A stretch of DNA of 41,340 bases from NCBI RefSeq assembly GCF_944384735.1, contig NZ_CALWUN010000014.1:1-41340 (forward strand), given 5' to 3'. Position numbers and translations under genes: made by a program. Numbering within the stretch: the first letter of the stretch is position 1; every line of letters starts with the position of its first letter. Shown in pieces: positions 4,800 to 35,943 of the stretch. The DNA comes from an uncultured Agathobaculum sp. (GTDB lineage: Bacteria > Bacillota > Clostridia > Oscillospirales > Butyricicoccaceae). Under the pieces are notes generated by a model that did not search any database, was not told where the DNA came from, and saw only the letters and a program-made list of their open reading frames with translations.

Positions 4800-5156
4800 A
4801 TGAAAATTGACGGAAACGAACTGGCTGTTTTGCAGGACAAGCTCGACCGGGAGGGCAAAAAGGAGGAGGCGTGGCGCGTCAAGCAAGAGTTCCTCCGGCA
4901 GGTGCGCGAGGCGGGCGACCACTGCCCGTGCCGCCAGCCCTGCCCGCACCACGGCAACTGCTTTGAATGCGTGACCATCCACCGCGGCCACCGCGACCAC
5001 CTGCCGATGTGCCTGTGGGATATGGTCAACGAGCGCATCGCGGCGCTCAGCCACATGACCGAGGGCACGCTGCGCCAGTACGAGGACCGCAAGGCCGCCG
5101 AAGCCGAAGCGGCCGCCTGCGGCTGCGCGGGCTGTGCCGGCTGCGGCGAGGGATAG
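4800..5156 (+). CDS. Small Cys/His-rich protein, unknown function
   Basis: 118 aa from the ATG at 4800 (AAGGAAGG 11 bases upstream); an in-frame start at 4734 has no such site. The N-terminus is a charged helix (about residues 5-35). The middle holds a dense cluster, CPCRQPCPHHGNCFEC followed by H-R-G-H-R and a further C, suggesting a zinc site. It resembles small clostridial proteins with a CPRHGxCxxC-type cluster, recalled from memory only. The tail is Ala/Cys/Gly-rich (CGCAGCAGCG). It is convergent with the licT-like gene; the two stop codons share the short palindrome GGATAGCCCTATCC. No function is assigned. Confidence 0.75.
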   Translation: MKIDGNELAVLQDKLDREGKKEEAWRVKQEFLRQVREAGDHCPCRQPCPHHGNCFECVTIHRGHRDHLPMCLWDMVNERIAALSHMTEGTLRQYEDRKAAEAEAAACGCAGCAGCGEG

Positions 5157-5158
5157 CC

Positions 5159-5992
5159 CTATCCTTCCCCGGTGATGCGCGCGATATGCAGCGTCAGGCA
5201 AAGCAGCTCGCTTTGGCCTGCGTCAAAGCCCCTGTCGCGGCGGACCGCGTCGCACACCGCCTGCGCGCAGGCGGACGCCGTCGGGTATTTGCGCCGCACG
5301 GCGGGCAGCAGGTCGGCGTCGCGGTCACCGTAGCCCTCCCCTGCCGCAATGCGCCGCGCCAGGAATTTCAGGTGCGCGACAAAACGGTAAAAGTCGATGG
5401 AACCGGTATCCGGCTCGACGCCGCAGTGCGTGCGCACCAGCGCGCACACCTGCTGCAGCAGGCAGGTCATGTCGTACACGGCGGGCAGCTCGCCGCCGAC
5501 CACCGCGTTGACAAAGTGCATGGCGATAAAGCCGGCCTCATCCTCGGGAAAGGCGACGCCCGTCTCGTCCCGGATGGTGTCGACCGCCATGCAGCCCGCC
5601 TGATACTCCTCCGGATAGAACTGCCGGATATCCCACAGCAGCGGGTTTTGCAGCGCAATGCCCTGCCGCTGCCTCCCGAGTGCGGCCGAGATATGGTCGG
5701 GCAGCGTGACGTAGATGCTGTCCGACAGCGTCACGCCCAGCATGTGCTTGGCGCGGTCGATGATGCGCTCGGCCAGCAGGAAATGCGCCAGCGGGATGCT
5801 GGTCAGCAGCTGCTGGAACCGGTCGGACAGCTGCCCGGCGTGCAGCGTGAACCGCTTTTCGATTTTGTCCTCCGGCGCGTCGTCCCCGGCGCGGCGGCCG
5901 AACGCCAGCCCGCGCCCCATCAGCACGGTTTCCGTGCCGCTGCCGTCCAGCGCCACGACCACATTATTATTGAGCACCTTTTGGATGCGCAT
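5159..5992 (-). CDS. licT: LicT/BglG-family transcription antiterminator
   Basis: 277 aa, the same length as LicT. The N-terminal RNA-binding CAT domain (MRIQKVLNNNVVVALD..., residues 1-55) is followed by PRD1 and PRD2. The four phosphorylatable histidines fall at the LicT positions: His100 (LPDHI), His159 (AMHFVNA), His207 (FVAHLKF) and His269 (LTLHIARI). PRD1 phosphorylation by an EII inhibits such proteins and PRD2 phosphorylation by HPr activates them. Translation starts after AAGGAGG, 21 bases past the cutC stop, so it is probably co-transcribed with cutC. The RAT at 4554-4582 is the obvious target. Confidence 0.95.
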   Translation of the reverse strand: MRIQKVLNNNVVVALDGSGTETVLMGRGLAFGRRAGDDAPEDKIEKRFTLHAGQLSDRFQQLLTSIPLAHFLLAERIIDRAKHMLGVTLSDSIYVTLPDHISAALGRQRQGIALQNPLLWDIRQFYPEEYQAGCMAVDTIRDETGVAFPEDEAGFIAMHFVNAVVGGELPAVYDMTCLLQQVCALVRTHCGVEPDTGSIDFYRFVAHLKFLARRIAAGEGYGDRDADLLPAVRRKYPTASACAQAVCDAVRRDRGFDAGQSELLCLTLHIARITGEG

Positions 5993-13884: not shown

Positions 13885-14727
13885 ATGCCCGGACTCGTTC
13901 TGGAGGGCGGCACCTTCCGCCCGATCTTTTCCTGCGGCGTGATGGACGCGCTGCTCGACAACGGCCTGATGTTCGATTATGTGATCGGCGTGTCGGCCGG
14001 CATCACCTACGGTGTGTCCTACGTTTCGCGCCAGCGCGGCCGCAATCTGGAGATTCTGCGGCAGTACCGCAACGACAAACGCTATTTCGGCGCGCGCAAC
14101 CTGCGCCGCGACCACTCGATCTTCGGCGTCGAGTTCGTGTTCTCGACCATCCCGAACGAGCTGATGCCGTTCGACGTCGAGACCTACCTGAACTTCCCCG
14201 GCCAGGTGCTCGTCGGCGTGACCAACGCCCGCACCGGTCAGGCCGAATACCTCGACGGCAAGATGCTCGACTACAAGAGCACCATCCTGCGCGCGACCTG
14301 CGCCATTCCGCTGTACTTCCCGGAGGTGCGCATCGGGGACGAAATCTACTACGACGGCGGTCTTGCCGACCCCATCCCGATCGTCAAGAGCCTGCACGAC
14401 GGCAACCAGAAAAACCTGATCGTGCTCACCCAGCCCAAGGACTACCGCAAGGTGATGCAGCGCAGCACGCAGCTGGCCGTGCTGACGCTGCGGCGCAAAT
14501 ACCCGGAACTCGCCCGCACGATGCAGAACCGCGCCCAGCACTATAACGATACCGTATGCTTCTGCCACCAGCTCGAACGCAAAAGGCCGCAGGACACGGT
14601 CATTTTGCAGCCCTCCGCCCATCTGGAGAGCTTTGAAAAGGATGTCAAAAAGCTCGAATGGGGCTATGAGATGGGCTATAACCTCGCCTGCGCGCGGATG
14701 GACGACATCCGCCGGCTGTTCACCTGA
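13885..14727 (+). CDS. Patatin-like phospholipase family protein
   Basis: 280 aa. The patatin Ser-Asp dyad is visible: the oxyanion motif LEGGTFRP (residues 6-13), the nucleophile elbow GVSAG with Ser37, and DGG with Asp157 (YYDGGLADPIPI). It resembles the bacterial YjjU/RssA-like branch: cytosolic acyl hydrolases with no signal peptide. The substrate is unknown. It lies 54 bases after rnr, with a GC hairpin (GCCCCG/CGGGGC) in between but no T run, so co-transcription is possible. A terminator follows the stop. Confidence 0.93.
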   Translation: MPGLVLEGGTFRPIFSCGVMDALLDNGLMFDYVIGVSAGITYGVSYVSRQRGRNLEILRQYRNDKRYFGARNLRRDHSIFGVEFVFSTIPNELMPFDVETYLNFPGQVLVGVTNARTGQAEYLDGKMLDYKSTILRATCAIPLYFPEVRIGDEIYYDGGLADPIPIVKSLHDGNQKNLIVLTQPKDYRKVMQRSTQLAVLTLRRKYPELARTMQNRAQHYNDTVCFCHQLERKRPQDTVILQPSAHLESFEKDVKKLEWGYEMGYNLACARMDDIRRLFT

Positions 14728-14731
14728 TAGG

Positions 14732-14756
14732 AAATGCGCGTACCGCGCATTTTACT
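14732..14756 (+). terminator. Short terminator after the patatin gene
   Basis: AAATGCGCG (14732-14740), loop TAC, CGCGCATTT (14744-14752), then TACTAT. The T run is short, so termination may be partial. Confidence 0.55.
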
Positions 14757-14792
14757 ATACACATATCACAAAAAAGGGGAAAAAAGAAACAC

Positions 14793-16076
14793 ATGCAGAC
14801 CAATCGTATCATTCAGGTGGAGGAAAAGGTGCCGCCGCGCCTGCTCGTGCCGCTGTCCATCCAGCACATGTTCGCCATGTTCGGCGCGTCGGTGCTGGTG
14901 CCGTTCATGTTCGGCATCAACCCGGCCATCGTGCTGTTCATGAACGGCGTGGGCACGCTGCTGTTCATCCTGATCACCAAGGGCAAGGCGCCCGCCTACC
15001 TCGGCTCGTCGTTCGCATTCCTCGCGCCGGCGGGCGTGGTCATTCAGAATTGGGGCTACCAGTATGCGCAGGGCGGCTTCGTTGTCGTCGGCCTGTGCGG
15101 CTGTGTGCTGGCCGCGATCATCTACAAATGCGGCACCAAATGGATCGACGTCGTGCTGCCGCCCGCGGCCATGGGCCCGGTCGTCGCGCTGATCGGCCTC
15201 GAGCTTGCCGGTTCGGCCGCGTCCACCGGCCAGATCGTCGGCGAGGGCGTGACCACCGCTTCGGTCGTCACCTTTTGCGTCACGCTTGCGGTCGCGGTGC
15301 TCGGCAGCGTGCTGTTCCGCGGCTTCCTGTCGGTCATCCCGATTTTGATCGCCATCATCTGCGGCTACGCCACCGGCCTGATCACCGAAGCAATTGCAGG
15401 CGAACATGTGATCCGCGACGGCATCATTGCCGCCATGCAGCAGCCGCTGTTCCAACTGCCCAACTTCCAGCCGCCCAAGTTTGATCTGGAAGCCATCCTG
15501 ATCATCCTGCCGGTCATCCTGGTCATCGCCAACGAGCACATCGGCCACCAGCTGGTCACGGGCAAGATCGTCGGCCGCGACCTTTTGAAAGACCCCGGCC
15601 TGCACCGCTCGCTGTTCGCGGACAACTTCTCGACCGCGCTGTCCGGCATGATCGGCTCGGTGCCGACCACGACCTACGGCGAGAACATCGGCGTCATGGC
15701 GATCACCAAGGTATACGCCGTGCGCGTCATCGGCGGCGCGGCCGTGCTCTCGATCATCTGCTCGTTCGTCGGCCCGCTGGCCGCGCTCATCCAGACCATC
15801 CCCGGCCCGGTCATCGGCGGCATTTCCTTCCTGCTGTACGGCATGATCGGCACGTCCGGCTTGCGCATCCTGGTCGACAACCGCGTCGACTACGGCAAAA
15901 ACCGCAACATGGCGCTGACCTCGGTCATTTTCGTCACCGGCCTGTCGGGCGTGACGCTGTCGCTCGGCAACGTATCGCTGTCCGGCATGACGCTGGCCGC
16001 CATCGTCGGCATGCTGATGAGCCTGCTGTTCTATGTGTTCGACAAGCTCAAGCTGTCCAACGACCTGACAAACTGA
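14793..16076 (+). CDS. uraA: Uracil permease (NCS2 family)
   Basis: 427 aa with the hydrophobicity of a 14-segment NCS2 transporter. The substrate-site motifs of UraA are present: ANEHIGHQ with Glu248 and His249, and PTTTYGENIG with Glu297. QHMFAMFGASVLVP near the N-terminus is also typical. It imports uracil with protons. AGGGGA lies 12 bases before the ATG. No PyrR-binding leader or pyrimidine genes are adjacent. The terminator that follows is shared with the convergent MATE gene. Confidence 0.95.
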   Translation: MQTNRIIQVEEKVPPRLLVPLSIQHMFAMFGASVLVPFMFGINPAIVLFMNGVGTLLFILITKGKAPAYLGSSFAFLAPAGVVIQNWGYQYAQGGFVVVGLCGCVLAAIIYKCGTKWIDVVLPPAAMGPVVALIGLELAGSAASTGQIVGEGVTTASVVTFCVTLAVAVLGSVLFRGFLSVIPILIAIICGYATGLITEAIAGEHVIRDGIIAAMQQPLFQLPNFQPPKFDLEAILIILPVILVIANEHIGHQLVTGKIVGRDLLKDPGLHRSLFADNFSTALSGMIGSVPTTTYGENIGVMAITKVYAVRVIGGAAVLSIICSFVGPLAALIQTIPGPVIGGISFLLYGMIGTSGLRILVDNRVDYGKNRNMALTSVIFVTGLSGVTLSLGNVSLSGMTLAAIVGMLMSLLFYVFDKLKLSNDLTN

Positions 16077-24406: not shown

Positions 24407-26185
24407 ATGCCGAAGGACTCAGTTTATGAGGAATACTTTGAAAGGAATAAAGTAGTATTCAACGATATATTCCGGGAAAATCATGAGCCGGCCCAGCAGC
24501 AGGATTTGACCGAACAAAAGCCGCTCGGCCAGTATGTAACCCCCCTGCACGAGCAGAAGGATGCGGACTGGAAACAGATGGAGGCGGATGCCGAAGCGCT
24601 GCTGCAGCACCAGCGCCATTCGGCGTTCGGCCGGCTGAAGGAGGACAGCCCAGAGATGCGGGCGGTCAAGGAGAGTCTGGCGGATCTGGACAATTCCTTC
24701 AAAGAGGATGTTATGTTGAAACCGAATGCTTTTGAAGAGCAGATCCAAACGCTCGGCCGCAACTACCACCAACTCATTTCGGACTGTGCGAAATACATCC
24801 GTGCGAAAGGTTCGCCGTGGACGAAGGACGGCAAAGCCCGCCTTGCCATGGTGAAAACGCTGCATAACCGTGCGGTGCGGGAGTGGAAGGCGCTGGAACC
24901 GGCGGCACGCGATATTTTCGCGCAGCTGCATTCGGTTAAGCCGTCCGACGGGGAGGAAGTGCAGCAGGTCAAATGGTACCGCGTGCTGCAAATGCTGCGC
25001 ACCGCCGAGCTGGATGCAAGCCAGATGGACGTATCCTATCTGGATCATAATATTGCGGGCGATACGCTCCGCATCCAAAACCGCGGGGAAACCGCCTATT
25101 TTATCCCGGAAGCCACGGGCAATATACTGTACCGGGAGGATTTGCAATGGGAATTCCGCAGCCAGCACGCCTATGACCAAAGCATGGCGGATATGCTGAC
25201 CATCATCGATAATATTCCGCTGGAAGTGATGGCGCATATGCTGCCGCCGCAAAGCAATGTGCTGCTGGAAATGGAAAACACGCCGGCGGCACGCAAGGCG
25301 TTGCAGGAACATCCGGATATCAAGTATGTTCTTATCCATGACCGCTTAACGCAGGCGCAGCACGATGCCTTTTACGACTGCCTGCGGAAAGAAAAGTATG
25401 TGGATGCGCTCATCCGCATGGCCAAGGAGCTGCACGAGCACGAGGTTATCCGCGCAAGGACGCAGGATAGTATGAACTCCACCGATTTCCTGCACGACCG
25501 CTCGATGACCGCAGTTGCCGCCAGCCGGCTGTCTGCACTGTGCGATATGCAGGATACCTATGCGCAAGCACGGCTGGTTACCCTCAAAAATGGGGAGGAC
25601 ACGCTGCGCGGCACCCTGCTCCGCACACCGCAGGCTGCAAACACGGAAAACTTCGCCACATTGCTGCAGCAATCCCGGCGTTCCGGCGGGCCAAAGCTGA
25701 CGTATTCCCCCCATGCGCTGGCACAGATGTCCACCATTGGTGTGATCGACCTGCTGCTTGGTATCCCAACCCGTGCGTTGGAGGATTATCAGGTAGAGTA
25801 TACAATCACGAACAACACCTACAACATTGAAAACGTTGTCGCTATCCAGCATCGCGCAAGCGGCGTGGTACCGCCCGAAGCCAAGCCTTTGGGTGGCCTT
25901 GGCGAGCCGGACCTGCACTTGCCTGGCGTGATGCTGCAAAGCGTGGCGACCATGATTGAGCAGTTGGATGAACATACGCTGCAATATCTGTTGGGGGATT
26001 TGTTTAGCGCCCGCCAGATGTATTGGGTGCGTGAGCGTCTGCACCGGATGCAGGAAATGCTGTTTTATGAAAAGAACCGCTTCAAGCGGGTTGAGATGGA
26101 TGAGTGGTTCCTCCATCTCAAGGAACAGGCTGAAACGGATTTCCTGCCTGAACCGGTACAGAAGTGGCTGCAGAAGAAATCCTGA
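24407..26185 (+). CDS. Unknown protein, helical module plus degenerate kinase-like region (paralogue 1)
   Basis: 592 aa; the ATG has AAAGGA 8 bases upstream. No signal peptide or membrane segment. An N-terminal helical module (about 84-150) holds MRAVKESLADLD and, from Cys127, CAKYIRAKGSPWTKDGKARL, shared with the next gene and with the gene at 29675-32788. Further on, GETAYFIPE, then GEDTLRGTLL, IDLLLGIPTRALEDYQVEY (447-465) and VVAIQHRASG (477-486) match in order the lobes of a gut-Clostridia kinase-like family whose members carry CGxxDRHxGN and IDND. Here those catalytic residues are replaced, so a pseudokinase is proposed. This is inference from motif order; function unknown. Confidence 0.7.
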   Translation: MPKDSVYEEYFERNKVVFNDIFRENHEPAQQQDLTEQKPLGQYVTPLHEQKDADWKQMEADAEALLQHQRHSAFGRLKEDSPEMRAVKESLADLDNSFKEDVMLKPNAFEEQIQTLGRNYHQLISDCAKYIRAKGSPWTKDGKARLAMVKTLHNRAVREWKALEPAARDIFAQLHSVKPSDGEEVQQVKWYRVLQMLRTAELDASQMDVSYLDHNIAGDTLRIQNRGETAYFIPEATGNILYREDLQWEFRSQHAYDQSMADMLTIIDNIPLEVMAHMLPPQSNVLLEMENTPAARKALQEHPDIKYVLIHDRLTQAQHDAFYDCLRKEKYVDALIRMAKELHEHEVIRARTQDSMNSTDFLHDRSMTAVAASRLSALCDMQDTYAQARLVTLKNGEDTLRGTLLRTPQAANTENFATLLQQSRRSGGPKLTYSPHALAQMSTIGVIDLLLGIPTRALEDYQVEYTITNNTYNIENVVAIQHRASGVVPPEAKPLGGLGEPDLHLPGVMLQSVATMIEQLDEHTLQYLLGDLFSARQMYWVRERLHRMQEMLFYEKNRFKRVEMDEWFLHLKEQAETDFLPEPVQKWLQKKS

Positions 26186-26217
26186 GTTGGACATGGTAAC
26201 AGAAGGGACGGGATCGT

Positions 26218-27933
26218 ATGCCAGATACCGATGAATTGATACATCAGCCCGTACAGCAGCAGCCCATCCAGCAGCAGCCTGTGATGGAGCAAGACGAGGC
26301 CATGCAGCAGGCTTCCCAGCAGGAATGGGCGCAGCGCACACAAGCGATGGATCCGCTTCTGCAAAGCCAGCGCAACATCCTCGGCTTCAACGTCAAGGAC
26401 AGCGAGGAAATGCAGCAGGTCAAGCAGTCGCTGCACACGCTCAATCAGTCGCTCGCTATCCCCATGCGCAACAGTCCGGATTGGGCTGATATTTACCGGC
26501 AATATGGGGCCGCCATCGCGGCCTGCCAGCAGTACATCACCCGCAAGGGCGCGCCCCACACCGGTCAGGGCAAGGCACGCCTCCATATGGTCCAGCAAGT
26601 GCTGGGCAAGCTGCAATGCGAACAGGCGTTGTTCCGCAGCGAGGTAGACCATCTTCCGCGCAGCGAAGAGCATCTGGATGATAACTTAGGCTGGTTCCAG
26701 CTGCTGCACCACGCACACGCCGTGGAATTTGACGCACAGGCCGATCAAGTGCGTCAGGTCGACGACCCCGCCCTCACCAAGTTTGAGGTGCAGCGCGGCA
26801 CGGCCAGCGTCACGTTCATGCCGATCGATCGTTATGACAAAGCGGCCGTCATCGTATCTGACGCTGACCGCATCAAAAACTATGTCAATGCGCACAAAGA
26901 CAACGAAGCGCTGAAAGCGGCCTTTGACACACTGAGCAAAAACCGCGGCTACAACACCTTTTTGCTGAAAATCCCGACGCTGCTCCAATCGCTGCATATC
27001 GAGAATACCTATGCTACGCTGGACGAAGCTCAGATGGAAGCATTGCAGGAGCAGATTCTCAACCATCCACTCGTCCGCAACCCGCTGGACCGCCTGGATG
27101 AGTCCCTTGCGCTGTTCCAACAGCCCCAGTTCACCGAGATATGCCGCATGGGCATTGCAATCAACGGGCAATTTGTCACAGCAAACGCGCTGGAAACCGC
27201 CGACGTCGTGGATGGTGCGTCGCTCGCCATGCACGCAGCCGCATTCAGCCGTATGGGGACGCTGCTGCATACGCAGAACCTGATCGCTGAAGCACGTGTC
27301 GGTGTGCTCAAAACCGAGGACGGCAAGGGCCAGATCGGCGTGGTCCAGCGCAACCCCGAAGGGGTGTCGCTCGCCGCGCTTCAGGAGCAGGCTGGGCAGC
27401 CCGACGCGATGCCTCTCGTATACAGCGACCAGGCTATCCTGCAGTTGGTCAACCTGCAGCTGCTCAACCTGATCTGCGGCAAGATCAACCACAATCCGAA
27501 GGACTGCATCGCAAAAACCAAAACCGAGAACGGCCGCGTCATCATCACCGAGCTGACGGCCACCCATAATGAGATATCCTTCGGCAACCTGCGCTTTGCG
27601 GATATCCAAAGCGACCTGCCGTTGTCGCTCCAGATCATGGACGACAACATGTACCGCGCCATTGCAATGTATACACCCGAACTGTTGACCACGATGTTTC
27701 AGGATCTGCTCAACCCGCAGGAACTGGAAGCGCTGATCGACCGGTTCGAGGGCGTAAAAAAGTTTTTGAGCCAGCGCCTGTTGGGGTTGGACCATAAGGG
27801 AAACCCGTCGCCCGATCGCATGTACCTGTTCAGCCAGCGTCCGCAGAACCTCAACTGGCGGGAGCTGTTTGCCAACCAGCAGCAGTGGAACGAGGGCGGC
27901 CATGGCACACTGGTCAACCCGCGCTACCTTTGA
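26218..27933 (+). CDS. Unknown protein, helical module plus degenerate kinase-like region (paralogue 2)
   Basis: 571 aa, 32 bases after paralogue 1 and surely in its operon; GAAGGGA precedes the ATG. The N-terminus is Gln-rich (residues 9-30). The helical module is MQQVKQSLHTLNQSL with CQQYITRKGAPHTGQGKARL from Cys103. GTASVTFMP could be a glycine-loop strand without the usual Lys. LLNLICGKINHNPKD (416-429) aligns with a catalytic loop CGxxDRHxGN, and TATHNEISFGN (447-457) with IDNDxSFG; the Asp residues are changed to Asn/His/Glu. It reads as a diverged, probably inactive kinase-fold sister of paralogue 1. No function is assigned. Confidence 0.7.
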   Translation: MPDTDELIHQPVQQQPIQQQPVMEQDEAMQQASQQEWAQRTQAMDPLLQSQRNILGFNVKDSEEMQQVKQSLHTLNQSLAIPMRNSPDWADIYRQYGAAIAACQQYITRKGAPHTGQGKARLHMVQQVLGKLQCEQALFRSEVDHLPRSEEHLDDNLGWFQLLHHAHAVEFDAQADQVRQVDDPALTKFEVQRGTASVTFMPIDRYDKAAVIVSDADRIKNYVNAHKDNEALKAAFDTLSKNRGYNTFLLKIPTLLQSLHIENTYATLDEAQMEALQEQILNHPLVRNPLDRLDESLALFQQPQFTEICRMGIAINGQFVTANALETADVVDGASLAMHAAAFSRMGTLLHTQNLIAEARVGVLKTEDGKGQIGVVQRNPEGVSLAALQEQAGQPDAMPLVYSDQAILQLVNLQLLNLICGKINHNPKDCIAKTKTENGRVIITELTATHNEISFGNLRFADIQSDLPLSLQIMDDNMYRAIAMYTPELLTTMFQDLLNPQELEALIDRFEGVKKFLSQRLLGLDHKGNPSPDRMYLFSQRPQNLNWRELFANQQQWNEGGHGTLVNPRYL

Positions 27934-27964
27934 CAGCTGTCAGATCCGCACCAAAAACAAAACA

Positions 27965-28003
27965 CGGCGCGCCGCCCCAAACGGGGGCGGCGCGCCGGTT
28001 TTT
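27965..28003. terminator. Bidirectional terminator between paralogue 2 and citrate synthase
   Basis: CGGCGCGCCGCCCC (27965-27978) pairs with GGGGCGGCGCGCCG (27984-27997), with GTTTTTG after it on the plus strand and TGTTTTGTTTTTGG on the minus strand. Confidence 0.9.
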
Positions 28004-28025
28004 GCATCTGTATGGAATTTTGTAA

Positions 28026-29399
28026 TCAGCTGCGTTCATCCATATTGACGTAAGGGACGGTCTTGGACAGCGGCTTATAGGCCGGGCGGATGATCTTGCC
28101 GCCGGTCGTGACCTCCTCGAGGCGGTGCGCCATCCAGCCGACGATGCGCGCGGTCGCGAACAGCGGGGTGTACAGCGACTTGGGCAGGCCGAGCATCTTG
28201 TATACCAGACCGGAATACATATCGACGTTGGCGCACATCGGCTTGTCGCTGCCCTTCTTTTCGGCGAAAATGGCGGGCGTCAGCTCCTCGACCAGCTCGA
28301 TCAACGCCATTTCCTTGGAAAAGCCGGTCTTTTCCGCCAGCGGACGCGCCGCCTGCTTGAGCGCGACCGCACGCGGGTCGCTCTTGGTATAAATGGCATG
28401 CCCCATGCCGTAGATCAGGCCGGAACCGTCGCCCGCCGCGCCGTCAAGGATTTTGCACAGGTAGTCCGCGACCGCGTCCCGGTCGGTCCAGTCGGACAGG
28501 TTGGCCTTCATCTCCTCAAACTGTTTGACCACGCGCAGGTTGGCGCCGCCGTGGCGCGGCCCCTTGAGCGCGGACACCGCCGCGGCGATGGCGGAATAAG
28601 TATCCGTGCCAGACGACGAGGTGACGCGCACGGTGAACGACGAGTTGTTGCCGCCGCCGTGCTCGGCGTGCAGGATCAGGCAGCGGTCGAGCAGCTTGGC
28701 CTCCTCGTCGTTAAACTTGCCGTTGGGGCGGACGAGGTGCAGGATGTTCTCAGCAGTCGAGCGGTCGGGGTCGGGCACATGCAGGAACATCGAGTCGCCG
28801 TCAAAATAACGGCGCTTGGCCTGATAGGCGTGCGAGATGATGACCGGGAACTTGGCCATCAGGCTGATGCCCTGCCGCATGATGTTCTCGACCGTCGTCT
28901 CATCCGGGTTTTCGTCGTAGGAATAGAGCGCGAGCGTCGCGCCGGCCAGCTTGTTCATAATATCGCGGCTGGGCGCGCGCATGATCATATCCTCGGTGAA
29001 GTTATCGGGCAGCGCGCGCTCCAGACCGATCGTGTGCTGGAATTCATCCAGCTGCCGCCGTGTGGGCAGCTTGCCGCACATCAGCAGATAGCCGACCTCC
29101 TCAAAGCCGAAGCGGTTTTCCTGCTCGAGGCCGTGGATGAGGTCATACACATTATAGCCGCGGTAGGTCAGGCGGCCTTCGATCGGCTCGCGCTCGCCTT
29201 CGTTGAGCAAGTAGCCGTGTACGTTGCCCAGCCGGGTCATGCCGGCCAGCACGCCCGTGCCGTCCGCGTTGCGCAGGCCGCGCTTGACGTCGTAGCGCGC
29301 ATACAGTTCGCCCGGCATCCTGCTGTTCAGGCGGAAGCTCTCGCTCAGCTCGTGCAGCAACTCCTCGTTTACAAAATTCGGCTGACAGTGACAGTTCAT
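28026..29399 (-). CDS. Citrate synthase (Si type)
   Basis: 457 aa. Condenses oxaloacetate and acetyl-CoA; in an anaerobe this feeds 2-oxoglutarate and glutamate. Motifs: LTYRGYNVYDL near the N-terminus, HAEHGGGNNSSF (first active-site His), GLIYGMGHAIYTKSDPRA (second His and Arg) and NVDMYSGLVY (catalytic Asp). The length and N-terminal extension match the longer clostridial form. The ATG at 29399 follows AAAGGGG; a start at 29438 lacks a site. It has its own strong promoter and sits, oddly, inside the accessory block. Confidence 0.95.
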   Translation of the reverse strand: MNCHCQPNFVNEELLHELSESFRLNSRMPGELYARYDVKRGLRNADGTGVLAGMTRLGNVHGYLLNEGEREPIEGRLTYRGYNVYDLIHGLEQENRFGFEEVGYLLMCGKLPTRRQLDEFQHTIGLERALPDNFTEDMIMRAPSRDIMNKLAGATLALYSYDENPDETTVENIMRQGISLMAKFPVIISHAYQAKRRYFDGDSMFLHVPDPDRSTAENILHLVRPNGKFNDEEAKLLDRCLILHAEHGGGNNSSFTVRVTSSSGTDTYSAIAAAVSALKGPRHGGANLRVVKQFEEMKANLSDWTDRDAVADYLCKILDGAAGDGSGLIYGMGHAIYTKSDPRAVALKQAARPLAEKTGFSKEMALIELVEELTPAIFAEKKGSDKPMCANVDMYSGLVYKMLGLPKSLYTPLFATARIVGWMAHRLEEVTTGGKIIRPAYKPLSKTVPYVNMDERS

Positions 29400-29440
29400 C
29401 TGCCCCGCCCCTTTCCTTGGATGTCTTTGATAATGCATAT

Positions 29441-29469
29441 ATTGTACCGCAATCCTGCATGCATGTCAA
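29441..29469 (-). promoter_or_regulatory. Strong sigma-A promoter of citrate synthase
   Basis: TTGACA (29469-29464), 17-base spacer, TACAAT (29446-29441), minus strand. Confidence 0.85.
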
Positions 29470-29604
29470 ATCCTGTCGCTTGTATGATTGGACAAAAAGC
29501 GGATTTTTGCGGTTTTTCCGCTTGTTCACCTTGCCTGTACGCAAGATTTTCTTTCTCTTTGTGCAAAGATTTTTTCACTTTGCCGTGTCAAAGCAGCAAG
29601 GGCG

Positions 29605-29636
29605 CGCAAAAGGCCACAGCCCACAGGCTGTGGCCT
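29605..29636 (-). terminator. Terminator of the 1037-aa protein gene
   Basis: On the minus strand AGGCCACAGCC pairs with GGCTGTGGCCT, ending in TTTTGCG, about 40 bases past the stop. Confidence 0.7.
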
Positions 29637-29674
29637 CAGTTGATTGGCATCATCGATACGTTGTGGGCGGCGTG

Positions 29675-32600
29675 TTACGCATGCCCGCCCTTGCAATTGA
29701 CCTCGATGATATACTGCCCCTTTGCCGCGCCGTCTTTCTTGACCGAGACGACCTGGTACGTATACCCTGCGTTCAGCTGCAACGCAAAATTGCTGCTGTC
29801 CTGCGCGCTGCTGGTAAGCAGTGCGTTGGTACCGGCCGGCATGTGCATGACCATCACATGCGAACCGGGCATCCCCTGCTGCCCGCCGCGCCGCGCACCT
29901 GCCGACGCGCCCTCCGGACTGGACGGCAGGCCGCGGCTCTGGCGCGACTGCTCGTTCATCTGGTTGGACATGCGCTTTGCCTGCCCGTAATGCAGCGTGG
30001 CGGCGACAAAATCGGTATCGCGGAAGGTCATGCCCCGCAGCATGTCCAAGTGCTCAGGCTGGCCGAGCCAGTCATGGTCGATCCCATCCTCCCGGAGCAC
30101 CTGCCGCTTGTCATCCTCGGAAAAATTCGGGCTTTGTGAAATCAGCCGAACCAGAAAATCATCCTGCATGCTACGGTAAGCGTCCATCGCCACCGGCAGT
30201 GCGTGCCGCGCAAAGGCGCGGCTGAGCACCTCGCGCCGCAGGCCGGTCGCGGTGCCGTCGGTCTGTTCCGGCGCGGCATGCCCATCCGCGCGTTCCGTTT
30301 GCGCGTGCAGCGCATCGACCGCCTGCTGCTCCTCCCGGCTCAGGTCGGACTGGTACATGCCCTGCACCCTGCCGTATTGCTTGGCGAACGCCTCGTCGCT
30401 GCCCCGGCTGCGCTGCCGGTTGTCCTGCTGTACCTGCAATTGCAGCAACGCACGGCGCATTCTGGCCTGACGCAGCCGCCGCGCGCTCTGCGCCTCGTCC
30501 CCCTGCTGCACAGGCTGGGGGACTTCTGCCGGGGCTGCCGCCGTCTGCGCAGGCCGGACGGTTTCTTCCACGTCCGTCGCTGTCTGCGCAGGCTGGACGG
30601 TTTCCTCCGCATCCTCCTCCGTCTGTACGGGCAGAGGCGCCTGCGCACGACGCATCGCCGTCCGCTGCTGCACGGCGGTGCGCTGTCCGGGCTGGGCCGC
30701 CACCTTGGCAATGATCTCAATGCCCTCGAACGTCGCAGCAACCATCTGGCCGCGCCCCTGCTTGCCGCCCGTTGCCGGCAGGTTGAGCGCGCCCTCACCC
30801 TGACGCGCCACCGCGCCCAAGATCATATAGCTTGCGCCGCGGCCGAGCAGCATCTCCCCCTGCACCATGTCGCCGGTCGGCAACGCGGGCGTTCCCTCGT
30901 CGCACAGCAGCGTCAGCATGACCGGCAGGCCGGCGCGTGTCCTGTCGGCAGCATAACTTGCCCGCAGAAAACCGCCTTCGCTGACGATCTTGCCCGCCTG
31001 CATATTGACCTTGCGCACCGCGCCCTTGGGGATGCCCTTGCCGTCCGGGTTTGCCGGGATGCCGAGCACCTCGGTCAGAAAGGCGGCTTTTTTCATCGCG
31101 TGCAGGCGGGTCTTGTCGGGCAGCCGGACGGCCCCGGCCAGACGGTCCATTTCGACCGCAGCCTGCATGGTGCGGCTGTCCGCATCCGTCTTGTATCGAT
31201 AGCGCTTACGCGGCACCCGCGGCGGCAGCGCTGGGACATTCCCCGGGACAACCGGGCGTGCTGCCTCGCTGCCCGGCGCCGGTTGCTGCGCATTTCCCGC
31301 TTTGGTTGCCTGCACTGTGCCATTTCCCACGGCCTTTTCTGCCTCCGGCACCGTGCCTGCTGTCCCTGCTTCTTCCGTTTGCTTCATTTCTTTTTCTTCT
31401 GTCTGCCCGCCGGACTGGACAGGCTGTGCGCCAGTCCCCGGCAGGGTCACGCCCTCCCCCGCCCCATTGGCGGTTTCCGGTGCAGTCTGTGTCGTTTCGT
31501 TGGTGACCGTGACCGTGGAAGATCCGGTCGGTTCCGCTGCGGTTACTGCCTGCTGTGCCTGCCGCCCGGCCGCGGCCGCCAGCATTGCCGCCCGGTGGCT
31601 GCGCAGCATCCGGTTGACGGCTTTGCGCTGCTCCTGCCCGACCAGCCGCTGGCCCGTCCCCAGTTCCGCGATGCCTGCCGCGCCCGCCGCTGCCTGCAGC
31701 AGCTTGGCGACCGCTTCGGCGGTCATGTGCCGGTATTCTGGGTACATATCCTTTTGCTGCCCGTCCGCTTCCGGTGCATGGTCGGTCAGCGTGGTGCGGC
31801 TTTGGTAGGTTTCGTCCTCCCCACTGACCATCAGGCCGTTTTCCTCTCGGAGCGCGCGGCAGGATTGCGCCACCTTGCCAAGCGCGCTGTCCGGCGCCGC
31901 TTCACCGCACAGCGTAACCACGCGGTCGGCCAGGTCGGCGCACAGCGCCGCTTCGCCGTGCGTGAGCGCCCGGTCGATCTGCTCGAGCAATATGTCGATC
32001 GTGGCGCGGTCATTGCGGCCGACCGTCTGGTCGGCGCGCAGCGCCTTGCGCTGTTCACGCAGGTGCGCGAGCGTACCGGCAACGGCAGGCGCGGCCTCTT
32101 GTCCCGCCGTCGTGGCGGCGGACTCCCCCCCGGCCGTTTTCCCTTCTGAAACGCCCGGCTGCGACGCGGTTTGATCCGCCGTTTCCCCGGGCGGCTTGCC
32201 TTTGTCCTGTGCCTGCACCTGTCCGTCCTGCCCCTCGGTATCCGAGGCGGGCAGGCTGAAATCCTCCGCCTGCGCCACAGCGCGGTCAAGCGGCCGCACC
32301 CCGGCCAGCAGATGCCGCAGCGTCGTACCCTCGCTTTCAGCCGGCATTTCCTCCAGGCCCTTTTCCAGCATCAGCGACTCGTCGTACGCCTGCTGCCGCA
32401 GCGTGCGCACCAGCTCGACGCGCGCCCGTCCCGCGCGGGTAAACCGTATCCTGCCGTGGCTTTCCAGATAACCGTCGCAGCATGTCAGCAGCTGTGCATA
32501 GTTGTCCAGCATTTCGTCGCGCACCCTGCCTACATTTTCAAACGTAACGATCTCATCCATGTTGCTGTCCAATGTATGCAGCGCTTCGACGACCATCTGG

Positions 32601-32788
32601 TACTCCTTGGACGCGGTCGCCATCTGTGGGTCATCCTGCAGCATCCTGCCCAGGAAAGCCTGCTGCGTCGATTGCCCGGTCTCCAAAAAACGCTCCAGAT
32701 GGCGCGCCGCGCCTGCGTCGCGCTCACCCTCGCTGAGCAGGAAAATATCGTTTCGGTTGTTCTCCCATGTTCTCGCGTTGACCGGCAT
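29675..32788 (-). CDS. Large multidomain protein: helical module, low-complexity linkers, two ADP-ribosyltransferase-like regions
   Basis: 1037 aa; the ATG at 32788 has GGAGGAGGG 6 bases upstream, better than the start at 32848. Residues about 50-130 are the helical module shared with the two genes at 24-28 kb (DPQMATASKEY..., Cys104 CDGYLESHGRIRFTRAGRARV). Ala/Thr/Gln/Glu-rich linkers follow (about 180-230, 410-510). Residues 585-690 resemble an ADP-ribosyltransferase: GGFLRASY (606-612) in the STS position, then EGTPALP and Gln643-Gly-Glu645 before MLLGRG, as in [E/Q]xE. The last 110 residues repeat the layout (DFVAAT, PAGTNAL, NFALQLNAGYTYQVVSV) without both acidic residues. No secretion signal. 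The domain reading is inference; function unknown. Confidence 0.65.
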   Translation of the reverse strand: MPVNARTWENNRNDIFLLSEGERDAGAARHLERFLETGQSTQQAFLGRMLQDDPQMATASKEYQMVVEALHTLDSNMDEIVTFENVGRVRDEMLDNYAQLLTCCDGYLESHGRIRFTRAGRARVELVRTLRQQAYDESLMLEKGLEEMPAESEGTTLRHLLAGVRPLDRAVAQAEDFSLPASDTEGQDGQVQAQDKGKPPGETADQTASQPGVSEGKTAGGESAATTAGQEAAPAVAGTLAHLREQRKALRADQTVGRNDRATIDILLEQIDRALTHGEAALCADLADRVVTLCGEAAPDSALGKVAQSCRALREENGLMVSGEDETYQSRTTLTDHAPEADGQQKDMYPEYRHMTAEAVAKLLQAAAGAAGIAELGTGQRLVGQEQRKAVNRMLRSHRAAMLAAAAGRQAQQAVTAAEPTGSSTVTVTNETTQTAPETANGAGEGVTLPGTGAQPVQSGGQTEEKEMKQTEEAGTAGTVPEAEKAVGNGTVQATKAGNAQQPAPGSEAARPVVPGNVPALPPRVPRKRYRYKTDADSRTMQAAVEMDRLAGAVRLPDKTRLHAMKKAAFLTEVLGIPANPDGKGIPKGAVRKVNMQAGKIVSEGGFLRASYAADRTRAGLPVMLTLLCDEGTPALPTGDMVQGEMLLGRGASYMILGAVARQGEGALNLPATGGKQGRGQMVAATFEGIEIIAKVAAQPGQRTAVQQRTAMRRAQAPLPVQTEEDAEETVQPAQTATDVEETVRPAQTAAAPAEVPQPVQQGDEAQSARRLRQARMRRALLQLQVQQDNRQRSRGSDEAFAKQYGRVQGMYQSDLSREEQQAVDALHAQTERADGHAAPEQTDGTATGLRREVLSRAFARHALPVAMDAYRSMQDDFLVRLISQSPNFSEDDKRQVLREDGIDHDWLGQPEHLDMLRGMTFRDTDFVAATLHYGQAKRMSNQMNEQSRQSRGLPSSPEGASAGARRGGQQGMPGSHVMVMHMPAGTNALLTSSAQDSSNFALQLNAGYTYQVVSVKKDGAAKGQYIIEVNCKGGHA
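30543..30620 (-). repeat. Two-copy 39-bp tandem repeat inside the 1037-aa protein gene
   Basis: The segment GTCTGCGCAGGC(C/T)GGACGG begins at 30543 and again at 30582. It encodes a 13-residue repeat, (A/V)EETV(Q/R)PAQTA, in a disordered linker between the two transferase-like regions. Confidence 0.7.
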
Positions 32789-32849
32789 GTGAGTCCCTCC
32801 TCCCCACGGCGGCACATGTATTGCTGCCTGTTCCGCGTGATATACCATG

Positions 32850-32877
32850 ATTATACATGATAAACCCGGCTTTGCAA
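32850..32877 (-). promoter_or_regulatory. Sigma-A promoter of the 1037-aa protein gene
   Basis: TTGCAA (32877-32872), 16-base spacer, TATAAT (32855-32850), minus strand; start near 32843, 55 bases before the ATG. Confidence 0.65.
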
Positions 32878-32924
32878 ACCGGCTTACAGCCGTTCCACCG
32901 CAAATTTTAAAAATGCTTTAGAAA

Positions 32925-32947
32925 GTCTGTCGGGCGTTGCGACAGAC
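32925..32947. promoter_or_regulatory. Candidate operator: 8-bp perfect inverted repeat over the ATPase -35 box
   Basis: GTCTGTCG (32925-32932), 7 bases, CGACAGAC (32940-32947). It covers the -35 box of the ATPase promoter and lies between divergent promoters. The inner arms TGTCG/CGACA resemble the spacing of Crp/Fnr half-sites; the Crp/Fnr gene at 35278 is the natural candidate binder. Confidence 0.5.
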
Positions 32948-32965
32948 AGGCGCGCTTGCTATAAT
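32937..32965 (+). promoter_or_regulatory. Sigma-A promoter of the AAA+ ATPase gene
   Basis: TTGCGA (32937-32942), 17-base spacer, TATAAT (32960-32965); start near 32972. Confidence 0.7.
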
Positions 32966-33008
32966 AAGGGCAGGACAAACCACCCTTTGGAAAGGGGGAC
33001 AAACCCAC

Positions 33009-35171
33009 ATGGAAGAGCAAAACCCGTTTTTGCAGCTGGTCGGGGAGCATCCATCCAACCTGCCCTATGGCAGCGCGCAGGCGCTGATGGACGACCTGCT
33101 GCGCCTGGCCGGCATGCTGTGTCTCGTGCTCGCCGAGCTGCAGGAGCAAACCGGCCAGCCCTACGACCTGCGCGGCACGGCGGCGCCGCCGGACAGCCTG
33201 CACGCCGCGCTGTTCGCGCGCAGCGCGCCGCCGCTGCCGCTGACGGCCATCCCGGAGGCTGCGCAGGCCGCCGCCCACATCCGCGCGCGCGTGCGATGCA
33301 CCGTCCAGACCGACCTGCCCTTCGTCCGGGTGGCGCGCCGCTTCCTGCTGACAGATTTCGAAGCGTTCTGCCTGCTGCTGGCGCTCTGCCCCGACCTTGA
33401 CTGCCGCTTTGCACACAGCTTTGCAGCGCTGCAGGGCGACCCCAAGCGCACGCGCGCCACGCTCGGGCTGGCGCGCGACCTGTTCCTGCTGGTGCACAGG
33501 CTGGACGAAAGCGAGGTATACGCCATGCTCGACCGGCAGCAGCCGGTCAACGCGCTGCTGCTGGTTGACTGGCCGGAAGACGCCGGACAGTCCGTGCTGG
33601 CGCGGCCGCTGGCCGTGTGCCGTCAGGTGCTGTATGAGCTGACCGGTGTGGCCGGTGCGGGCATCGACGGCCTGCCGCTGCAAACGACGCTGCTGCATCC
33701 CGACGCGCAGCCCATCCTGTGGAACCGGGCGCGTATCGACGCAGGCGCGGACTTTTTGCGTTACGCGCTTGCGCACCCTTGCGTCGGGCAACTGCGCGTG
33801 CTCTGTCTGTTCGGCGCAGACGGCTGCGGCAAGACCTTCGCACTGACCCAGATGGCGCAGCAGGCCGGGCTGGCCGTACGCGCAGTCGACGCCGCAGCGC
33901 TGCTGCGCGGCCCGATGGATGCGCTGCTGCGGCAGGTTGCCGTGCGCTGCCTGCTGGATGACTGCATCCCGTGCATCGACCGCCTTGCGGTCGGCAGCCC
34001 GGAGACGCGCGCACTGGTCGTGCAGGCCGTCCGGTTTTTGCAGGACAACTTCCCGCTGCTCCTCCTGTGCGCCGACCAGCCGTGGGACTTCCCGCAGGGG
34101 CTTGCGGCCGACTGCCTGATGCTCGAGTGTCCGCTGCCCTCCGTGCGCGACCGGCGCGCACTGTGGCAGCACTTTGCCGAACAGGCCGGCACACCGCTGG
34201 CCGGGGACGAGCTGGACGCGCTGGCCGGACGATACCGCCTGCGTCCGTCCGAGATCCGTGCGCTCGCCGGTACGGTTGCGCGGGTACGCGCGGTGCAATC
34301 GGATGCGCCGTCTACGCCCGCGCTGGTGGCCGTTTCGCTGCGGGAGCAGGCGCGCAGCCGTCTGGGCGGTCTGGCGCATTACCTGCCCTCCCCCTTTACC
34401 TGGGGCGACCTGAAGGTGCCGGACGATGCCGCCCGCATGCTGCGCAGCGCGTGCACCCGCATCCAATACCTCTATCAGGTCAACGAAAGCTGGGGCTTTG
34501 CCCGCCGCCTGCCCTATGGACAGGGCGTTTCGGTGCTGCTTTACGGCCCGCCCGGCACCGGCAAGAGCATGGCCGCGCAGGTACTCGCGCGTGAGGTCGG
34601 CATCGACCTGTTCCGCGTCGACCTGTCTCAGATCGTCGACAAGTACATCGGCGAGACCGAGAAAAACCTCGGCCGCCTGTTCGACACGGCGGACGGCGTC
34701 AACTGCATCCTGTTTTTCGACGAGGCCGACGCGCTCTTTTCCAAGCGCACCGAGGTAGGCGACGCCAAGGACAAATATGCCAACGTCGAAACCGCCTACC
34801 TGCTCCAGCGCATCGAACAATTCCCGGGCATCACCATCCTGGCGACCAACAATGCCCGCAATTTCGACGAGGCGTTCCGCCGCCGCATGACCTACTACAT
34901 CAACATCCCCATGCCCGACCGCGATACACGCGAGCGCATCTGGCGCAGCGTATTCCCGCCCGAGCTGCCGGTCGACCGGGGCGTCAGCTTTGCCGAGCTG
35001 GCCGACCGCTTTGAATTTGCAGGCAGCAACATCAAGTCGGTCGCGGTATCCGCCGCCTATGCCGCAGCGGCAGCGGGCACGCCGGTCACGCGCCAGAGCA
35101 TCCAGCAGGCATTGCAGATCGAATACCTCAAAACCGGCAAGCTGCTCGCGCTGGGCGAATATCCGTGCTGA
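33009..35171 (+). CDS. Double-AAA+ ATPase, contractile-injection-system (Afp15) type
   Basis: 720 aa from the ATG at 33009 (AAAGGGGG 10 bases upstream; the start at 32937 lies in the promoter). Residues 1-230 form a helical/winged-helix-like N-terminal region. The first ATPase module has Walker A GADGCGKT (269-276) and a weak Walker B around LLDDC. The second is intact: GPPGTGKS (513-520), LFFDEADALF (Asp571, Glu572), sensor ILATNN and arginine finger region AFRRRM. The run IQYLYQVNESWGFA and YVNVET-like YANVETAYLLQRIE are typical of the ATPase encoded with extracellular contractile injection systems, though relatives occur outside them. No sheath, tube or baseplate gene is in the window. Followed by a Crp/Fnr gene. 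Confidence 0.85.
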   Translation: MEEQNPFLQLVGEHPSNLPYGSAQALMDDLLRLAGMLCLVLAELQEQTGQPYDLRGTAAPPDSLHAALFARSAPPLPLTAIPEAAQAAAHIRARVRCTVQTDLPFVRVARRFLLTDFEAFCLLLALCPDLDCRFAHSFAALQGDPKRTRATLGLARDLFLLVHRLDESEVYAMLDRQQPVNALLLVDWPEDAGQSVLARPLAVCRQVLYELTGVAGAGIDGLPLQTTLLHPDAQPILWNRARIDAGADFLRYALAHPCVGQLRVLCLFGADGCGKTFALTQMAQQAGLAVRAVDAAALLRGPMDALLRQVAVRCLLDDCIPCIDRLAVGSPETRALVVQAVRFLQDNFPLLLLCADQPWDFPQGLAADCLMLECPLPSVRDRRALWQHFAEQAGTPLAGDELDALAGRYRLRPSEIRALAGTVARVRAVQSDAPSTPALVAVSLREQARSRLGGLAHYLPSPFTWGDLKVPDDAARMLRSACTRIQYLYQVNESWGFARRLPYGQGVSVLLYGPPGTGKSMAAQVLAREVGIDLFRVDLSQIVDKYIGETEKNLGRLFDTADGVNCILFFDEADALFSKRTEVGDAKDKYANVETAYLLQRIEQFPGITILATNNARNFDEAFRRRMTYYINIPMPDRDTRERIWRSVFPPELPVDRGVSFAELADRFEFAGSNIKSVAVSAAYAAAAAGTPVTRQSIQQALQIEYLKTGKLLALGEYPC

Positions 35172-35196
35172 ATTTCCGGCACGCCGCCGATACCGT

Positions 35197-35225
35197 TTGT
35201 ATTTTGCCGCCCGATACGCTATACT
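35197..35225 (+). promoter_or_regulatory. Sigma-A promoter of the Crp/Fnr gene
   Basis: TTGTAT (35197-35202), 17-base spacer, TATACT (35220-35225). A GCGGCGG/CCGCCGC hairpin (35237-35259) lies in the short leader just before the AGGAGG and could limit translation. Confidence 0.7.
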
Positions 35226-35277
35226 GGACATACATTGCGGCGGGGTTCCGCACCGCCGCCCCACAGGAGGAACAGAG

Positions 35278-35943
35278 ATGCACATTGGGGATTATCTGCC
35301 CTTTTGGGATAAACTGACGGACGGACAGCGCGCGGCGCTGGAAAGCGCGGCCGTGCCGCACCATTTTGCGCGCGGCGCCATGCTGCACGAGGCCGGCACC
35401 TGCACCGGCCTGATCATCGTGACCAGCGGCCGCGTGCGCGCCTATATGCTCTCAGCCGACGGACGGGAGCTGACGCTGTACCGCCTGCTCGAGCGCGACA
35501 TCTGCCTGCTGTCCGCGTCGTGCGCGCTGCGTGGACTGGATTTCGACGTGATGCTCGCCGCCGAGACCGATTGCGACGTATGCGTCATCCCGGCGGACGT
35601 GTATCAGGGCGTGATGCAGCAGTCCGCCGCCGCTGCCGCGTTCACCAACGAGCTGATGGCGACACGCTTTTCCGATGTGATGTGGCTGATGGACCAGCTG
35701 CTGTACCACAAGCTGGACTGCCGTCTGGCCGCGTTCCTGGTCGAGGAGCGCGCGCTCACCGACAGCGGCACGCTCCACCTGACGCATGAGCGCATCGCCG
35801 CCTACCTCGGCAGCGCGCGCGAGGTGGTCACGCGGCTGCTCAAGTATTTCCAGGGCGAGGGTCTGGTCAAGCTCGGGCGCGGCAGCGTCACCCTGCTCGA
35901 CGAAGCCCGGCTGCGCGCCCTTGCGGGCGATAGCCTGCGCTGA
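35278..35943 (+). CDS. Crp/Fnr-family transcriptional regulator
   Basis: 221 aa. N-terminal cyclic-nucleotide-like beta roll (about 10-125), long dimer helix (125-150), C-terminal winged helix with HLTHERIAAYLGSAREVVTRLLKYF as the DNA-reading element. Six scattered cysteines include CLLSASC in the sensor domain, a pattern frequent in clostridial members; it does not match the Fnr N-terminal cluster. The ligand is unknown. AGGAGG lies 7 bases before the ATG. It follows the AAA+ ATPase by 106 bases, with its own promoter and a strong terminator, and may control the divergent pair upstream. Confidence 0.92.
   Translation: MHIGDYLPFWDKLTDGQRAALESAAVPHHFARGAMLHEAGTCTGLIIVTSGRVRAYMLSADGRELTLYRLLERDICLLSASCALRGLDFDVMLAAETDCDVCVIPADVYQGVMQQSAAAAAFTNELMATRFSDVMWLMDQLLYHKLDCRLAAFLVEERALTDSGTLHLTHERIAAYLGSAREVVTRLLKYFQGEGLVKLGRGSVTLLDEARLRALAGDSLR

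Follow-up and report, generated by a model that had tools for sequence, protein, structure and literature searches.

What do three large genes, each with few or no recognisable family matches, do beside a tandem ATPase? This question is raised by the stretch of DNA considered here, namely, the entire contig C14 (41,340 bases; hereafter, the window) of the genome of an uncultured Agathobaculum sp. (2.06 Mb, 83% complete), in which a block of open frames encodes proteins A and B, a citrate synthase, protein C, the ATPase P0004 and a Crp/Fnr protein. The best explanation, to which a probability of roughly two in three is given, is that a contractile injection system (CIS), a machine derived from phage tails and here encoded in another part of the genome, has A, B and C as its cargo. 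The N-terminal module common to the three would serve as an address or loading domain, and P0004 would be a second unfoldase of the Afp15/Pvc15 type, separate from the ATPase of the CIS operon and reserved for this cargo family. By analogy with Pvc15, we infer that P0004 physically interacts with the cargo, recognising the N-module and loading A, B and C into the CIS particle for injection. Relatives were sought in 60 sampled genomes in the case of A and otherwise in 87 genomes representing the family, 394 representing the order and 25 representing the genus.

A common N-terminal module on two kinds of protein

Gene A (24407..26185, plus strand) encodes 592 residues, gene B (26218..27933, plus strand) encodes 571 residues and gene C (29675..32788, minus strand) encodes 1037 residues. 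A and B are related across most of their length, whereas C joins them only at about residues 50-160. This common portion is an N-terminal module of some 100 residues, corresponding to residues 72-182 of A (24620..24952, plus strand), 52-150 of B (26371..26667, plus strand) and 50-160 of C (32309..32641, minus strand). An earlier reading of this DNA, made from the sequence only, had proposed such a module, attached to differing C-terminal domains. The module was confirmed using a profile free of window sequences, 4,000 shuffles and comparison with 684 called proteins as background, and the C-terminal portions indeed differ, being kinase-like in A and B and of the ADP-ribosyltransferase (ART) type in C. 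At L093, the effector locus of the termite-gut Oscillospiraceae genome G161, module, kinase and ART are fused within a single protein.

The module is rare, being detected in two of the 87 family genomes and in four of the 394 order genomes, the last of which (G249) presents a match interrupted by stops (E value 8.6e-4). The search with A found relatives in 2/60 genomes, its own included. Pfam, considered at E values of up to 1, returned nothing for A and C and four weak, unrelated matches for B; NCBIfam returned nothing for A and one weak, unrelated match each for B and C; PHROGs returned nothing for any of the three. Several other proteins considered as possible carriers matched neither the leave-out profile nor the module hidden Markov model (HMM), namely, the calpain-type and 1088-residue proteins of G023, the 664-residue protein of L101, the 510- and 530-residue proteins of the mouse-gut Lachnospiraceae record L103 and the 1018-residue protein of L093; a kinase-type protein of G355 (L157), included in the module HMM search set only, likewise gave no match.

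Structure modelling assigns B, and by homology A, a kinase fold like those of PI4KII, HipA and Fam20, with the fold matches for B and for C resting on the better-scoring regions of models whose mean predicted local distance difference test (pLDDT) values are 50 and 63, respectively. The catalytic-loop Asp and Asn and the metal-binding Asp motif, which we take to mark an active kinase of the PI3K/PI4K/HipA-like type, are kept by five of seven aligned kinase-type members, among them Lb, the counterpart in the sister species of the same genus (G019). A and B are the exceptions and, judging from sequence, look like pseudokinases in the window's species. Across the order, the kinase profile (A4) found matches in 6/394 genomes, with G386 and G433 matching in the kinase part only and in different surroundings; PDB sequences yielded two chance-like matches only (E values of 0.4 and 0.54).

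When IMG/VR was searched with the kinase part, one relative (L125) was found among 111 pattern matches. This protein combines the eCIS_core domain (PF13699, 4e-7) of extracellular CIS (eCIS) effectors with the same kinase end as the A/B family. Its 13.5-kb contig resembles a fragment of a CIS locus and additionally encodes another eCIS_core protein, a WHD+AAA ATPase and a GPD baseplate hub protein. That contig (IMGVR_UViG_3300040788_000098) is filed as viral; it was also read as L191, from among the 10 loci and 211 pattern matches of an IMG/VR search with the ATPase profile. Near the G161 effector, a 1018-residue protein (L093:13925-16981) presents, by eye, two repeats of another kinase-like pattern; Pfam gave no match for it at E values of up to 0.1.

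In C, the N-module is followed by a helical middle portion, low-confidence linkers and, according to the model, two ART folds, an arrangement shared with the enzymatic components of binary toxins; the whole chain structurally matches BECa, CDTa, Ia, C2I and Vip2. The ART1 core (30689..31186, minus strand; residues 535-700), for which the structural match extends to helices from residue 350, is nearest to C3 exoenzymes, while ART2 (29687..30397, minus strand; residues 798-1034) is nearest to the Certhrax catalytic domain. The motifs R, STS and ExE or QxE were considered as what is presumably the ART catalytic signature. Among the eight ART-type proteins compared, ART1 holds E/Q-x-E in all, a canonical STS in none and the first-strand Arg in seven, C being the exception, with the match of residues to the catalytic arginine having been assigned by alignment register. 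ART2 is present in seven of the eight and retains all three motifs in five of these. The exceptions are C and Lc, its counterpart in G019; C keeps the strand Arg and has lost STS and QxE, such that its second ART looks like a pseudo-enzyme in the window's species. PF03496 (ADPrib_exo_Tox) was matched in L100, L102, L103 and L093 (best E value 5.6e-32), with no Pfam match for C. An IMG/VR search with the ART profile yielded 53 pattern matches and no relatives.

Because most catalytic motifs are degenerate in the window's species, the function of its cargo may lie in binding, or the cargo may be in decay. The view that the set found in the window is a remnant in decay, namely, an effector cassette past catalysis and now drifting, is compatible with the cargo reading and is suggested by the motifs lost in A, B and ART2 of C and by the presence of relatives in only one of the 24 other genus genomes. 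Such decay is rather unlikely, however, given that all three frames are open, running for 592, 571 and 1037 codons with no stop, that ART1 retains the E/Q-x-E motif, and that P0004, its D2 motifs intact, is 70% identical to the ATPase of the sister species.

An ATPase beside the proposed cargo, and a CIS in the same genome

P0004 (33009..35171, plus strand; 'ATPase2'), encoded divergently from C, comprises a WHD and tandem AAA+ domains, with Walker A and Walker B intact in D2. The proposal that it is an Afp15-like double-AAA+ ATPase thus holds, with an N domain, tandem AAA and intact D2 motifs all being those of the Afp15/Pvc15 type. A P0004-type ATPase adjoins the ART protein in all eight ART-type loci found (the window, G019, G161, L099, L100, L101, L102 and L103), bearing out the association of ATPase and module that had been predicted. 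The two genes are divergent in six of these (the window, G019, G161, L099, L100 and L101, the ATPase of L100 being cut by a contig end), while in L102 and L103 both are read in one direction, the ATPase being downstream and, in the latter, separated from the ART gene by one small gene. As L099 and L100 belong to one genome, their ATPases sharing 99% identity across the 171 residues available, the eight loci represent seven genomes and perhaps at most seven events.

In a tree of 19 ATPases, those of the CIS-operon type form one clade (five rows, 100/100) and six of the seven cargo-side ATPases form another, apart from it (98/99). Both types are present in G000, G019, G161 and the L103 record. 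This coexistence is also what would be expected were the cargo reading right and the loader wrong, with the CIS-operon ATPase loading the cargo and P0004 acting as a chaperone that does no more than keep the large effectors soluble or inactive in the producer. According to passages of PMC11495950, Pvc15 associates payloads with the particle via N-terminal signals and its D2, the sole bioactive ATPase domain of the two, rescues unstable payloads, the latter being a chaperone-like role; P0004, however, keeps the WHD, both AAA domains and that very D2 intact, and the chaperone alternative is considered unlikely.

The sequence-only reading called for a genome search for sheath, tube and baseplate genes, and these were found on contig C1 of the window's genome, where Pfam matched sheath, tube, CIS_tube, spike, gp25, baseplate J, Tail_P2_I, Pvc16_N and DUF4280; this CIS has an ATPase of its own. 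As expected of CIS effectors, which should co-occur with CIS structural genes, the same sheath type is present in all seven carrier genomes, the query being from the window's own genome and the other six sheaths being 60-68% identical to it. In the window's genome, CIS and putative cargo lie on different contigs; in G161 and L103, the cargo-side ATPase is found in or beside the CIS cluster. At L093, a single STAS-like gene separates the CIS baseplate genes from the effector/ATPase pair that comes after them, at the end of the cluster. In L103, three genes separate the baseplate genes from the effector, one of them encoding a CIS-type ATPase, such that both ATPases flank the effector region.

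Within the genus, tube PF06841 is found in 10/25 genomes and sheath PF17482 in 17/25, including weaker and probably prophage-like copies. Comparison with the window's own sheath type covered 13 of the 25 and found the same type without the module in G021, G014 and G003, more distant or split matches in G012, G013, G020, G011 and G024, and no match in G023, G004 and G005. Other CIS-like clusters were noted in the genus at L028-L030, L035 and L036 (G020, G012, G013, G011 and G024).

These distributions also bear on the possibility that ART, kinase and AAA+ proteins form an intracellular conflict system, anti-phage or toxin-antitoxin-like, with no link to injection. Patchy, insertion-like gene order, the two genomes that hold related ATPases but in which no CIS of the window's type was detected, and the best NCBIfam match of the P0004 AAA domain, the anti-phage protein IteA (122 bits vs a cut-off of 510), would be in line with such a system. 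Yet the sheath type accompanies the set in 7/7 carrier genomes, two loci lie within or at the end of CIS clusters, and the kinase domain occurs in an eCIS_core protein, rendering a conflict system quite improbable. IteA as the identity of P0004 was rejected, since the match covers the AAA domain alone and lies far under the cut-off.

Other observations weigh against the proposal that A, B and C are CIS cargo served by P0004. No CIS structural gene lies inside the window, and eCIS_core (PF13699) is absent from A, B and C according to Pfam, such that these are not filed as eCIS_core effectors. G023 and G004 (94% and 97% complete) hold P0004-like ATPases with no match to the sheath type or to tube PF06841, G023 having two weaker PF17482 sheath matches; this argues against a strict link of such ATPases to the CIS. 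The ATPases of both, as well as that of G161, were left unplaced in the tree, with a long-branch warning from the program. The A/B-type genes of G019, in the stretch read, and the kinase-type relatives of G216 and G355 are not beside an ATPase. To these are added the degenerate motifs of A, B and ART2 of C and the lack of a canonical STS in any of the eight ART1 domains.

Some further features of these loci were noted. In G023, the P0004-like ATPase lies beside the 1088-residue protein and a calpain-domain protein (PF00648, 2.3e-20; L027:4650-12931). In the Gram-positive genome of the window, the CIS cluster on contig C1 includes an OEP protein (TolC-like, 8.7e-11; L033:2754-4796) and, among its neighbours, large proteins that by eye seem to be membrane-bound, an uncommon composition for a secreted CIS. 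Small cysteine-rich and GNAT-like proteins, recognised by eye, are repeatedly encoded next to the effectors of other genera (L093:12884-13920, L100:3284-3640, L101:11875-12276 and 5071-5907, L102:8224-8412, L103:11930-12334 and 14612-15526); gene calling at 50 residues or more revealed none in the window's block.

Gene order around the block

At the resolution of gene order, one insertion brought A/B and another brought C/ATPase. A gene that we take to be desulfoferrodoxin-like adjoins citrate synthase in G018, G023 and G003, with another gene between them in G006; between the same two genes lie A and B in the window, and Lb and the other gene in G019. A lipoprotein-like gene adjoins Crp in G018 and G023, the ATPase and Lc lying between these in G019; as the far side of C in the window is citrate synthase, this second insertion was read from G019. 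In G022 and G009, Crp has other neighbours.

The sequence-only reading had included Crp/Fnr in the block, a membership that did not survive. Homologues (E values of up to 1e-40) are found in 17/25 genus genomes and, in two of the four genomes looked at, the gene stands beside the flanking lipoprotein-like gene without ATPase or C. Being widespread in the genus and in place without the system, Crp/Fnr was ruled out as its regulator and is an old neighbour only. The loading or targeting interpretation first offered is supported in what it says of a module on different effectors, of the ATPase type and of the links to the ATPase and to a CIS, and unsupported in what it says of Crp/Fnr. In the window, citrate synthase and Crp are separated by C and the ATPase alone (28026-35943), while on G018:C22 (L186, L144) the two are about 21 kb apart, with recA- and rimO-like genes, recognised by eye, between them, pointing to a rearrangement or an assembly mis-join.

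Comparison with known systems

What would be new here is that CIS cargo of gut Clostridia bears a conserved, address-like module and is accompanied by a cargo-side ATPase, the enzymes being mostly degenerate in the window's species. Among open-licence PMC literature, considered by titles and abstract openings, no paper addressed a second cargo-side ATPase or the module. More tentatively, module and ATPase could form a transferable address-loader pair, in which a folded N-module marks the cargo, a second unfoldase reads it and a two-gene cassette away from the operon re-arms the CIS, with the window's largely non-catalytic cargo (two pseudokinases and a degenerate dual ART) acting by binding to its target; this extension is possible, and we lean somewhat against it. 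As what marks CIS cargo is poorly defined, a module borne by kinase- and ART-type cargo beside an unfoldase would offer a handle on recognition and would allow CIS cargo to be found far from CIS operons. The findings also suggest that gut Clostridia have CIS whose cargo is kinase-like and of the ART type.

Of the known systems, kinase-fold proteins such as PI4KII, CtkA, Fam20 and HipA differ from A and B in that the latter lack the conserved catalytic motifs. Binary ART toxins and the C3 and Vip2 ARTs offer a parallel to the two ART folds per chain of C; C, however, is only about 9-20% identical to these in structural alignments, bears the N-module, neighbours an ATPase and has a degenerate ART2. 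The eCIS effectors carrying an N-terminal signal peptide or eCIS_core (DUF4157), among which PMC8213781 describes an ART effector, likewise place an N-terminal segment before different toxin domains in multidomain cargo. By contrast, A, B and C are without eCIS_core and their module, some 100 residues long, can be recognised from sequence in different genera, whereas the known eCIS loading signals are, in passages of PMC11297309, short and with no conserved sequence detected. Finally, P0004 resembles Afp15/Pvc15 of extracellular CIS in its N-terminal domain, tandem AAA D1/D2, 'DEAD' Walker B in D2 and link to both CIS and cargo, yet differs in being a second copy, in adjoining a cargo gene and in falling into a clade apart from the ATPase that the CIS operon of those genomes encodes.
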